Assembly: GCF_014725735.1 (NCBI RefSeq)
Contig: NZ_CP061368.1
Span: 635,225 to 699,224, forward strand
Length of the DNA: 64,000 bases
Direction: 5' to 3'
DNA from: Wenzhouxiangella sp. AB-CW3
Lineage (GTDB): Bacteria; Pseudomonadota; Gammaproteobacteria; Xanthomonadales; Wenzhouxiangellaceae
Shown: in pieces, positions 44,597 to 62,904 of the stretch
Layout: each line of letters opens with the position of its first letter
Numbering within the stretch: position 1 is the stretch's first letter
Notes under the pieces: model-generated
The model's database searches: none
The model's input: only the letters and a program-made list of their open reading frames with translations
What the model was told of the DNA's origin: nothing
Position numbers and translations under genes: made by a program

Positions 44597-45103
44597 ATGG
44601 CGGATGTCGTTGTCACGCTGTCCTTGAAGCGAAAGTCCGGGATCCTGGCCGCCGCGGTATCGTCGCTGGCTCGAAACGGGCTTGAGTTCCAGACCCATCG
44701 TTTTGTCGATTCCGATGCAGGGGAAGAACTGCAGGTGGAATTGAATGCCGAGGGTGAAGTGGGGGATGTCAACGGATTGATCGAAACACTCGAGCGTATC
44801 CGCGGCGTTGACAGTGTGGTCGATATCGACTCCGACGGCCAGTCCTTGCTGCATGCTCCCGAACCGGAACCGGAACCGGAACCGGAACCGGAGCCCGAGC
44901 CCGAGCCCGAGCCCGTTGCCGATGCCTCTGACGAGGATGCCGAACAGACGGATGGACCGGGCGGCGAAACGTCCGAGCCGGCGTCTTCAGCCGGCGACGA
45001 AAAGGGCAATACGGACTCGCGCAGTCAATCAGGGCGATCGGATGATTCCGGCAAGAACCCCCGGCGACGCTCCATGATGCGTCGTCGACGGCGATTTACC
45101 TGA
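44597..45103 (+). CDS. ACT-like domain protein with Glu-Pro repeat
   Basis: A 168-residue protein. The first ~75 residues have an ACT-like beta-alpha-beta-beta-alpha-beta pattern (VVVTLSLKRKSGILAAAVSS, then LQVELNAEGEVGDVNGLIET and a closing VDSVVDIDSD). A run of about nine Pro-Glu pairs follows (about 89-107), encoded by an in-frame hexanucleotide repeat. After it come an acidic, disordered stretch and a very basic end (PRRRSMMRRRRRF). The ACT-like unit suggests small-ligand sensing; the basic tail suggests nucleic acid or membrane contact. Function unknown. Confidence 0.7.
   Translation: MADVVVTLSLKRKSGILAAAVSSLARNGLEFQTHRFVDSDAGEELQVELNAEGEVGDVNGLIETLERIRGVDSVVDIDSDGQSLLHAPEPEPEPEPEPEPEPEPEPVADASDEDAEQTDGPGGETSEPASSAGDEKGNTDSRSQSGRSDDSGKNPRRRSMMRRRRRFT
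44858..44916 (+). repeat. In-frame hexanucleotide microsatellite (Pro-Glu repeat)
   Basis: Tandem CCGGAA units are followed by tandem CCCGAG units, all in frame and encoding (Pro-Glu)n. Gain or loss of a unit changes the protein by two residues without a frameshift, so length should vary between strains but not switch the gene off. Confidence 0.85.
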
Positions 45104-57439: not shown

Positions 57440-57989
57440 ATCACCGCCGCTGCCGATCATCCACGGTCGGCGCGAGAAACGTCCGGCCGACCGCTTCCGG
57501 ATCGAACAGCTGGATCTGGAGTTCTCCAACGGGGAGCGCCGGGTTTACGAACGATTGCTGAGCCGGGGGCTGGGGGCCGTCATCGTGGCAGCCATGCCAG
57601 ACGACGAGCATGTGCTGCTGGTGCGCGAATACGCCTGCGGCGTGCATCGCTACGAGCTCGGCCTGCCCAAGGGGCGGCTGGAGCCGGGCGAGTCACTGCT
57701 GGAAGGTGCCAACCGCGAGCTTCAGGAAGAATGCGGATACGCCGCGCGCGAGCTCCAAGAACTGGGCCACCTGACACTGGCGCCCGGCTACATGACCCAC
57801 ACTACCCACGTCATCCTCGCCCGCGACCTCTATCCCTCCCGCCTGCCGGGCGACGAACCCGAAGAGCTGGAAGTCATCAAGTGGCCGCTGGCCGACCTGG
57901 TCAGCCTGATCGAACGCGACGACTGCACCGAGGGGCGCTCGATTGCGGCGTTGTATATGGCGAGAGAGAAGGTGAAAGGTAAAAGGTAA
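57423..57989 (+). CDS. nudE: ADP compounds hydrolase NudE (Nudix family)
   Basis: A 188-residue Nudix hydrolase acting on ADP-ribose, NADH, Ap3A and similar ADP-containing substrates. The Nudix box is complete: GRLEPGESLLEGANRELQEE followed by CG. Upstream, RVYERLLSRGLGAVIVAAMP and ELGLPKGR fit NudE. The extreme C-terminus (REKVKGKR and the stop) is encoded by a heptad repeat array, so its length and sequence are probably not functionally constrained. Confidence 0.9.
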   Translation: MPFRDESPPLPIIHGRREKRPADRFRIEQLDLEFSNGERRVYERLLSRGLGAVIVAAMPDDEHVLLVREYACGVHRYELGLPKGRLEPGESLLEGANRELQEECGYAARELQELGHLTLAPGYMTHTTHVILARDLYPSRLPGDEPEELEVIKWPLADLVSLIERDDCTEGRSIAALYMAREKVKGKR

Positions 57990-58104
57990 ATGGCGGGATT
58001 TGCAGTGGTTTTAGCTGTTTTGGCTGGCCAATGGCCAGCACCTCGCCGTTGGCCACCCGGTTAGAAAAGAAGGCAAACAGCCATCCCTCCTTTCACCTTT
58101 CACC
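57969..58104. repeat. Composite intergenic element: heptad array, hairpin, inverted heptads (locus 3)
   Basis: About three AAAGGTR heptads (57969-57990), overlapping the nudE stop, are followed after 32 bp by a TGGCCA hairpin (GCTGGCCA / TGGCCAGC, 58023-58039, with a further GTTGGCCACC at 58048-58057). Inverted heptads CCTTTCACCTTTCACC lie at 58089-58104, just before the hemJ stop. Same heptad as locus 1 (39456-39619), 18.5 kb away. Confidence 0.75.
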
Positions 58105-58107
58105 GCC

Positions 58108-60165: not shown

Positions 60166-61464
<1,299 letters not shown>

Positions 61465-61483
61465 GGCCGGGCGGTTTTGACCT

Positions 61484-61523
61484 GATAGGGGTCGGGGAGG
61501 CTCTGCCCTCCCGCCCCCCTATC
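61484..61523 (+). terminator. Strong hairpin after the amidohydrolase gene
   Basis: GATAGGGG pairs with CCCCTATC, and inside it GGGAGG pairs with CCTCCC, giving a long stem 20 bp after the stop. There is no T run, so it may stop transcription weakly or protect the 3' end. Confidence 0.5.
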
Positions 61524-61539
61524 GGTGAGTTGAGTAAGG

Positions 61540-61790
61540 TGTGAAGTGAGGGGGCTTTCGGTTGGCTGTGCGGAAGGGGGAAGCTGCGGTGGCATGGGTA
61601 GTGTTGGAGGTGTTAAGTGTTAAGTGTTAAGTGTTAAGTGTTAAGAAGCAAGGGGGTGCGTCAATGGGCATTGCCTAACACCTAACACCCATCTCCCAAC
61701 CTGACCCGGAAGGCAAGACGCTTCGTGCTCCCCAAGACGCCCGGTTACGCCCGCCCTTCACACTTCACACTTCAAGCTTCACACTTCAAA
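61540..61790. repeat. Nested heptad-repeat element (locus 4)
   Basis: This gene-free stretch (61465-61791) holds five TGTTAAG heptads (61611-61645), a small palindrome CAATGGGCATTG (61663-61674) and two inverted heptads CCTAACA CCTAACA right after it. Outside these are five CTTCACA-type heptads (61756-61790), paired with a single inverted unit TGTGAAG near 61541. The result is one heptad hairpin nested inside another, between two convergent genes. Confidence 0.72.
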
Positions 61791-61791
61791 C

Positions 61792-62904
61792 TCAATCCCC
61801 ATACCCACTCATCTCCAGGTAGCCGCGACCCAGCGGCTCGCCTGTTTCGGTATCGCTGACTTTCATCGCACCCTCCCAGTAAATCACCGAGCGGTCCCAG
61901 CGCTGTTCGTCGAACAGTGGTTCGACGCGCAGGTCCAAGTCGGCTTTCGGTACGCTGACCTGCCATTCCACGGGCCAGCGATGGCCCTCGTGATCGCGCC
62001 ACCAGCGCTTTTCGGTTGTGCTGAAGTCTTCAAGGCCAAGGTGGGTCGGCGTGCCGTCTTCGGCCACGACCACGCCGGCGGAATAGGGCGACGGGTTGCC
62101 GTCGTGATCGCGCAGGCGGTAGACCATCAGGTCGCGCCCGTCGGCTAGCTGCAGTGCAAACCAGTCCCAGCCGGCCAGGTCGTCTGAAAGCTGGCTCGAT
62201 CCCCACTCGCGGTCCAGCCAGGCGTTGCCGGTCACCAAATGCCAGCGATCACCCAGGCGAATGCGACCGTCGGTGGCCAGGCGGGTGGCCGAGTAGTAGC
62301 GCGAGGCATTGCCCGGCTCCGGGCCTTTCTGGCTGTAGCCGGCATCGCCCTGCAGGACGAAGGGCTTTAGCTGTGCCATGTCCAGATCGACGGCGAAGTC
62401 TCCGGCATCGGCCTTGAGCCGCCAGCCATCCTCGGTGGCCAGCACCTGCCAGTCGCGCAGCCACCAGCGGTCGGTCTCGGCGCCGGCCAGGCCGATGGCA
62501 TCGCGGGCAAAGCGTTCGGCCTGGTAGAAGCGTTCCCCGGCACCATCGCTGACGGCCAGGTGCGCCATCCAGATCGCTTCGGCGGCCCAGGCGGAGTCCG
62601 GCGTCGGCCCGGGATCCAGGGCGAAGCGGAACAGGGTGAACTGGAAACCGGCCGGTCCCTCCGGTCGCTCCAGGCTGCCGGTGAAATACCACCATTCGTT
62701 GCGATAGCCCGGATGCAGGGCATGATCGGCCGGGAATTCCAGCGGCACGGGCCCGGTCACGCGCCGGAATTCGTCGGGTGCGGCGGTCAGCAGGCCGCTG
62801 GCCTGCAGCCTTACCGGCTGCGGTTGTGCTTCGCGCGTCTGCCAGCCCAGCCAGGCAGCCAGCGCCAGCGCAATCAGCAAGACGATGACAAGATCGCGTT
62901 TCAT
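61792..62904 (-). CDS. CrtC-like lipocalin-domain protein
   Basis: A 370-residue protein with an N-terminal membrane anchor or signal (LVIVLLIALALAAWLGW). The rest matches the CrtC N-terminal lipocalin family (hydroxyneurosporene hydratase-like): HPGYRNEWWYFTGSLERPEG, FQFTLFRFAL, HLAVSDGAGERFYQAERFAR and WLDREWGSSQLSDDLAGWDW. Family members next to ABC permease genes are not carotenoid enzymes and are thought to act in the envelope. It overlaps the upstream FtsX-type permease gene by four bases (ATGA), so the two belong together, probably with an ATP-binding subunit beyond the window. Confidence 0.85.
   Translation of the reverse strand: MKRDLVIVLLIALALAAWLGWQTREAQPQPVRLQASGLLTAAPDEFRRVTGPVPLEFPADHALHPGYRNEWWYFTGSLERPEGPAGFQFTLFRFALDPGPTPDSAWAAEAIWMAHLAVSDGAGERFYQAERFARDAIGLAGAETDRWWLRDWQVLATEDGWRLKADAGDFAVDLDMAQLKPFVLQGDAGYSQKGPEPGNASRYYSATRLATDGRIRLGDRWHLVTGNAWLDREWGSSQLSDDLAGWDWFALQLADGRDLMVYRLRDHDGNPSPYSAGVVVAEDGTPTHLGLEDFSTTEKRWWRDHEGHRWPVEWQVSVPKADLDLRVEPLFDEQRWDRSVIYWEGAMKVSDTETGEPLGRGYLEMSGYGD

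Follow-up and report, generated by a model that had tools for sequence, protein, structure and literature searches.

The inverted arrays of 7-mers found between two convergent genes of Wenzhouxiangella sp. AB-CW3 are probably one copy of a dispersed, non-coding, MITE-like palindrome with slipping heptad arms. In the family to which this copy belongs (TGTGAAG/TGTTARG), each arm has a TGTGAAG block on the outside and, about 60 bp away, a TGTTARG block on the inside, the G-rich arrays reading inward. This reading is favoured by the recurrence of copies in the genome, a shared right spacer, the spacing within the composite arm, the lock on period 7, the polarity of the arrays, the matching of the arms and their neutrality towards gene context; it is also favoured by the replacement of one complete spacer (yebC-ruvC) in a relative, by two elements that lie inverted, and by arrays that recur in related genomes. 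Recurrence, composite arm, period lock, polarity, arm matching, the one replacement and the two opposite orientations are direct observations, and a benefit to the cell is not needed to explain the data.

The window, i.e. the whole stretch of 64,000 nucleotides that was analysed, belongs to the single contig of a 3.84-Mb genome (G000; G and L numbers denote genomes and loci). In it, the gene of an Amidohydro_1 protein (PF01979; 60184-61464, plus strand), upstream of the gap, faces that of a CrtC/Lipocalin_9 protein (PF07143, PF17186; 61792-62904, minus strand), and the convergent setting described by an earlier, sequence-only reading thus holds. From left to right, the element starts with an outer arm made of a single TGTGAAG (61540-61546, plus strand, direct reading), found where a lone unit near 61541 had been noticed, followed by a G-rich left spacer of 63 bp (61547-61609, plus strand), identified by spacer comparison. 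The inner left arm (61610-61645, plus strand) holds five TGTTAAG units, exact at 61611-61645 as had been claimed, both by direct reading and by Tandem Repeats Finder. After the centre of the palindrome (61646-61673, no strand assigned, direct reading) comes the inner right arm (61674-61688, minus strand, on which the G strand reads TGTTAGG; reading and Tandem Repeats Finder), then an A/C-rich right spacer of 67 bp (61689-61755, minus strand) that ends in ACGCCCGCC, and last the outer right arm of five CTTCACA-type units (61756-61791, minus strand). The two CCTAACA units of the inner right arm are present, one base away from where they had been placed (61674-61687 plus CC, not 61675-61690), and the CAATGGGCATTG palindrome assigned to the centre can be located at 61662-61673, being only imperfect, with 5-bp arms around GG. 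The five CTTCACA-type units at 61756-61790, borne out by reading and by Tandem Repeats Finder, comprise three exact units, one CTTCAAG and one CTTCAAA, and this array abuts the stop codon of the CrtC-like gene (complement of 61792-61794). Just past the amidohydrolase stop there is also a G+C-rich stem-loop (61483-61524; -31 kcal/mol and z -3.26 for 61476-61530, without a T run), which may be the true 3'-end structure of that gene. Elsewhere in the window, at 44861-44915, two hexamer arrays, GAACCG x5 and GAGCCC x4, abut each other.

Complementarity between left and right spacer is absent from the window copy (941 of 1000 shuffles do equally well), so that its outer symmetry rests on one TGTGAAG and on similar spacing (63 vs 67 bp); taken on its sequence, this symmetry becomes convincing only through the other genomic copies. 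The left spacer is related to its counterpart in the copy at C1:3453537 (L010) and, reverse-complemented, to a right spacer of L025, whereby the window copy looks like a mosaic of its family. In the corresponding test against right spacers, the number of shuffles doing as well, out of 500, was 0 for L025, 16 for L192, 28 for L028, 297 for L019 and 457 for L010.

Searched against its own genome, the gap sequence gives at least 92 matches, itself included (40 of the 73 candidate places were scored), among which are copies of 190 bp at C1:1641701 (81% identity), 249 bp at C1:3453537 (67%) and 109 bp at C1:2117027 (81%). The non-heptad right spacer, taken as a 68-bp query (61690-61757), has two other genomic copies, 87% and 79% identical, its ten remaining matches being 19 bp each with an E of 2.75. 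The two units had been regarded as unrelated heptads; they are one-base variants that alternate within single contiguous arrays at L012, L016 and L024, and are better taken as a pair of blocks within a single composite arm. Their concentric arrangement is no coincidence, a possibility that had been considered: it is repeated in 13 half-elements of the genome (two of them from one element), in the order TGTTARG, spacer, TGTGAAG from the centre to the outside, with spacers of 58-69 bp in a search allowing 20-110 bp, a near-constancy that is partly ascertained since many of the loci were chosen for similarity to the gap element. This count leaves aside 4 of the 17 pattern matches, being contiguous arrays without a spacer, and the script skipped, with no tally kept, those matches whose spacer contained additional inner repeats. 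In the element of L019 (C1:610410-610617), the spacers of the two halves are inverted copies of each other with 82% similarity. At L192:11234-11482, TGAAGTG-type arms enclose TGCGAGG, a heptad that really is different. This locus and L192:12981-13403 hold copies of one composite in opposite orientations (72% similarity over 203 bp), TGAAGTG-type units forming the outer arms and TGCGAGG/TTCGAGG the inner heptad, which amounts to a nesting of distinct heptads.

The rules followed by such arrays were drawn from a sample of 824 kb, or about 21% of the genome, made up of the window and 38 further stretches of 20 kb each, with genes called by a simple codon-usage script and hence approximate starts. 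Among periods 2-24, period 7 accounts for 63 intergenic tandem arrays of this sample, against one of period 8, four of period 10, 24 of period 14, 11 of period 21 and two of period 24, those at 14 and 21 being probably for the most part the period-7 arrays again; none was seen at periods 2-6, 9 or 11-13. Period-7 arrays are intergenic in 63 cases and coding in three, and fall, when grouped by eye, into at least eight unit families, namely TGAAAGG, TTCAGGG, TGACGGG, GGGACTC, TGAAGTG/TTAAGTG/TTAGGTG, TTTCCGG, AGACGGG and TTCGAGG/TGCGAGG. Of the 311 spacers in this sampled fifth of the genome that measure 60 bp or more, 50 (roughly one in six) carry an array, with no preference for a gene direction: 10 of 48 convergent, 29 of 186 tandem and 11 of 77 divergent spacers, or 0.54, 0.48 and 0.51 arrays per kb, respectively.

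Polarity is marked. Wherever a spacer has arrays on both strands (16 cases), the G-rich strand reads inward without exception; of 72 arrays, 61 are closer to the spacer edge from which that strand points inward; and inward polarity is kept in 26 of 30 single-array spacers. Within 15 bp of a gene edge, arrays are G-sense at 25 of 27 stop edges and C-sense at eight of nine start edges. The arms of one element are moreover matched to each other (0.627 vs a permuted mean of 0.302 over 16 pairs, with 1 of 20,000 permutations as good). A significant inverted partner exists in 30 of the 50 heptad spacers and is missing in 20. Loops with the heptads masked have another genomic copy in 13 of 46 heptad spacers vs 26 of 206 controls (p 0.013), an excess that is only moderate and in which several matches are leftover degenerate heptads. 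Side observations are a dispersed non-heptad intergenic repeat (GTCGCCCCGGAATCGCC...; L178:15819-15937, L182:7491-8324 and L194:15210-15526, 72-78% alike) and, in the spacer L198:3892-4288, a long tandem repeat with TTGCCGCCCAAAGGGCGGCAA hairpins beside a TTAAGTG array.

As for the same gap in related genomes, the best-matching named record of the CrtC-like protein is from a Wenzhouxiangella MAG (96% amino-acid identity), where AGGGTTC arrays open the gap right at the stop codon and are cut by the end of the contig; in another relative (82%) CGGGTGA units occupy the gap, and the contig likewise ends there. A contig of G031, the same bin as that MAG, has the amidohydrolase side with TTTCCGG and TTCAGGG units around other short repeats, the origin of this contig and of the one with the CrtC-like side from one organism being not sure. 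TGTTAAG/TGTGAAG arrays were not seen in the gap among 12 + 26 relative loci, not all of which have the same neighbours, and the contigs of the closest relatives break off within the gap or right at its border (L042, L043, L044, L147). What the comparison proposed to reveal a stepwise insertion predicts does occur in the gap with other repeat families, as nested (L047 = L136), outer-only (L048, L051 = L135, and L131) and inner-only (L052 = L134) palindromes. The palindromes of L047, L048, L051, L131 and L052 consist of AACGCAAAGACGC- and CCACGGAAGACACGG-type units, whose period is other than 7, with inverted-repeat scores of 109, 77, 85, 45 and 41 vs the best of 60 shuffles each (21-32). Octads at L045 (GTGCGTCA) scored 25, where the best shuffle reached 23, a margin too small to be of use, and in the short gaps of L130, L133, L137, L141 and L146 repeats were not seen. 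In Wenzhouxiangella sp. 15190, a TGTGAAG/TGTTAAG-type array is present in another spacer, 1.6 kb beyond the gap (L047:6685-6717).

Turnover of other spacers was followed in 30 that could be compared with G031, G027 and G024, two of the three stretches (L173 and L178) having been picked as array-rich. The matching spacer of the relative has an array in 11 of 20 comparisons in which the own spacer has one, vs 5 of 47 others (Fisher p 2.5e-4), contigs of one bin being liable to count twice; with window 57989-58107 recoded as own-positive the table becomes 13 of 22 vs 3 of 45. By eye, six of the 11 recurring arrays are of the same family and five of another, so that much of the recurrence is plain inheritance.

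Replacement is seen at the spacer L178:18244-18313, between two genes on the same strand that, from their protein starts, I take to be yebC and ruvC. The own genome, G024 and G027 share a TTCAGGG-type array here, along with some 40 bp of tail; in G031 a 183-bp GGGACTC palindrome fills the alignment between the stop and the start codon, i.e. the whole spacer is replaced. At window 57990-58107, the own genome and G031 share a loop with TGAAAGG arms, and in G024 the loop is inverted with TGACGGG arms on both sides (71 inverted, 20 in the same sense, best of 200 shuffles 24). The GGGACTC element of L173:13422-13641 is likewise inverted in one G031 contig (84 inverted, 16 same, 24 shuffle best), is represented in a second G031 contig by just a 69-bp gap with other repeats, and is absent from G027, where 24 bp lie between the aligned flanks. 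The two inversions could be separate insertions in opposite orientation. Three different heptads occupy L173:14934-15293 in the own genome, G027 and G031. One region is covered twice by G031 contigs (L253 vs L260, 85% identity): this bin is mixed or holds a paralogous region. The own genome and G031 are not relied on as a sister pair, identities varying by region and the bin being mixed. At one clear empty site (L173:2228-2375 vs G024), no target-site duplication was seen by eye.

Beyond the species, three consecutive TGTTAAG units occur in 4 of 43 genomes of the family (0 of 43 for the backward control) and three of AGGGTTC in 25 of 43; within 200 kb sampled from each relative, G015 has no intergenic array and G037 has two. 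An RGGT heptad pattern is found in 26 of 276 genomes of the class (counted from the table) vs 21 of 276 for its backward control, a near-equality that leaves the RGGT core without special standing as a signature at the level of the class. In G261, from another family, 22 stretches (two preceding the even sampling, one of these at a known match) yielded 19 arrays between genes, every one of period 7 in a search of periods 4-12; polarity is inward in all five two-strand spacers, whose left and right units are often different heptads, and in 16 of 19 arrays, and is absent from single-array spacers (2 of 5). In 18 stretches from eight other genomes, picked for holding RGGT arrays, periods are 7 (23 arrays), 8 (two) and 9 (five), and polarity, at 16 of 27, is not significant, with one spacer for it and one against. 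A very small genome, G287 (a 0.35-Mb contig; L299-L301), has AGGTTTG/AGGTGTT heptad arrays and 25 pattern matches. A search with the Y1_Tnp profile found no transposase tied to the elements: there are six matches in the own genome, one in G015 (which has no heptads in 200 kb) and none in G031, G027 and G024, which are 80-85% complete and all have heptad arrays; matches occur in 19 of the 43 family genomes.

Heptanucleotides in tandem are known from cyanobacteria as STRR, for which I know of no inverted composite architecture. A literature search on intergenic repeats of Wenzhouxiangella gave no paper; the systems compared here come from the best-ranked papers of the other searches, and further descriptions may be in print. 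Calothrix heptanucleotides are mentioned by Rehm et al. 2015 (PMC4692102), who describe heptameric GGGAATC / GGGGA(C/T)T repeats in Xanthomonas and Nostoc and propose for them a quadruplex-forming regulatory role. In that article, the Xanthomonas repeats form inverted pairs that converge (70 and 75 such cases in two Xanthomonas), have the G strand sense after stops and antisense before starts, and vary in length and sequence between two species, 83% being kept at the same place; the function of heptad repeats and their commonness in some bacteria are there left open. The element described here is a variant of such heptameric intergenic repeats, its nearest kind being that of Xanthomonas, and heptads themselves were already known. 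It shares with the repeats of PMC4692102 the period of 7, the intergenic and dispersed location, the inverted pairs and the edge rule. It differs from them in having at least eight unit families in one genome and a two-block arm with near-constant spacing, in that divergent spacers are not short of arrays, and in the replacement of one spacer by another family and the opposite orientation of two elements; in addition, GG is absent from TGTTAAG and TGTGAAG, unlike the G-tract units, but present in the TGTTAGG variant and in other families.

Three further systems bear comparison. The TAACTGA repeats of Beggiatoaceae (MacGregor 2015, PMC4679880) are also intergenic heptad arrays of a gammaproteobacterium, but differ in being made of a single unit, nearly all direct and mostly just upstream of starts. 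BrickBuilt of Porphyromonas gingivalis, a MITE with a minisatellite (PMC4596501), is an intergenic miniature inverted-repeat element of tandem repeats as well; its 23-bp units are central and its inverted-repeat ends small, while here the arms themselves are the arrays. REP elements of the GTAG/CGTC type, tagged and in part RAYT-linked (PMC3733652), are dispersed extragenic palindromes often in opposite pairs; at 20-40 bp they do not match an element of about 250 bp with heptad arms, and with no clear Y1_Tnp link either, a REP/RAYT identity was discarded. The present element is short and multi-copy and has the inverted-repeat arms of a MITE, the inverted repeat being imperfect at the window locus. 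It would seem to work like a MITE, as a candidate member of that class with presumed mobility.

Four other explanations need to be considered. That two unrelated elements met at the window locus, one inserted into the other, is improbable: real nesting does exist, of different palindromes in the same gap of L047, with outer-only and inner-only relatives, and of distinct heptads at L192:11234-11482, but the two window units are one-base variants found in contiguous arrays, and a similar inner-outer spacing characterises all 13 half-elements. Still less credit can be given to a bidirectional transcription terminator or a stabiliser of mRNA 3' ends, in spite of the location between convergent genes and of inner arms (61606-61692) that fold on the minus strand better than 200 of 200 shuffles (z -4.04), the plus strand being equalled by 16 of 200 (z -1.67). 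The whole 271-nt element exceeds its shuffles only slightly (RNA z -1.71 and -1.26, DNA z -0.72) and the stretch of a GGGACTC element not at all (z 0.45); 61400-61900 contains neither a terminator-like site (G+C stem then T run) nor an Rfam match at E up to 1; and in G031 an element sits between yebC and ruvC, two genes of one strand. Per kb, divergent spacers hold nearly as many arrays as convergent ones (0.51 vs 0.54), and the similar load of convergent, tandem and divergent spacers, together with a polarity set by the spacer, makes a dedicated terminator or promoter role unlikely; an RNA-element reading was rejected on the same grounds. The chance is slimmer yet that the arrays serve regulation by forming quadruplexes, the role put forward for the repeats of Xanthomonas and Nostoc. 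They agree with PMC4692102 in period, in location between genes, in inverted pairing and in the edge rule, yet the GG-free TGTTAAG and TGTGAAG, which cannot form the G-tract quadruplex of that article, keep the same period and polarity.

Growth in place, without mobility, deserves more attention and is nevertheless doubtful. Slippage would add 7-mers to spacers with a short hairpin, template switching would copy the arms, and each spacer would evolve separately. The lock on one period regardless of unit sequence and the at least eight unit families of one genome agree with it, as do the two arms at window 57990-58107, which changed in concert (TGAAAGG in the own genome and G031, TGACGGG in G024), and the fact that about half of the recurring arrays are of the same family at the same site; a slippage idea linked to the size of the polymerase active site is moreover cited in PMC4692102. 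It does not account for non-heptad spacers common to different genomic places nor for the exchange of the whole yebC-ruvC spacer in G031, and it leaves the fixed inward polarity without reason. The dispersed palindrome has its own weak points, namely the missing duplication at L173:2228-2375, the failure to tie a transposase to it, the six of 11 recurrences in the same family, the 20 of 50 spacers without a significant partner, the unpaired window spacers and the poor folding of the GGGACTC stretch. It is also weakened by the single arrays of G261, which lack polarity, by the often unlike left and right units of that genome, by the 16 of 27 found elsewhere, by the moderate masked-loop excess and by the mixed G031 bin.

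If the dispersed palindrome is the right reading, its 7-mer blocks would grow and shrink by replication slippage, and its arms would be kept alike by inter-arm exchange, either hairpin-templated copying or recombination, which would also flip the centre of the element. Whole elements would be copied between spacers by a putative MITE-like or gene-conversion route, replacing one another. A bolder and unlikely version is that of an undescribed class of invertible, spreading intergenic elements with telomere-like ends of heptad arrays, run by one dedicated machinery: a transposase or template-copying enzyme would set the period of 7 and the inward polarity of the G strand, and would allow many unit sequences. 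Were that true, any spacer could be colonised, flipped and re-colonised by another unit family.

To sum up, this genome sharpens the question of heptad repeats, as the unit sequence varies freely under a fixed period, polarity depends on the spacer rather than on transcription, and some spacers differ wholesale between related genomes. The mechanism, be it slippage, arm copying or transposition, thereby becomes testable through comparison of strains. If the elements move, they would provide a route for rewriting the spacers between genes, along with the promoters and translation leaders that these contain.
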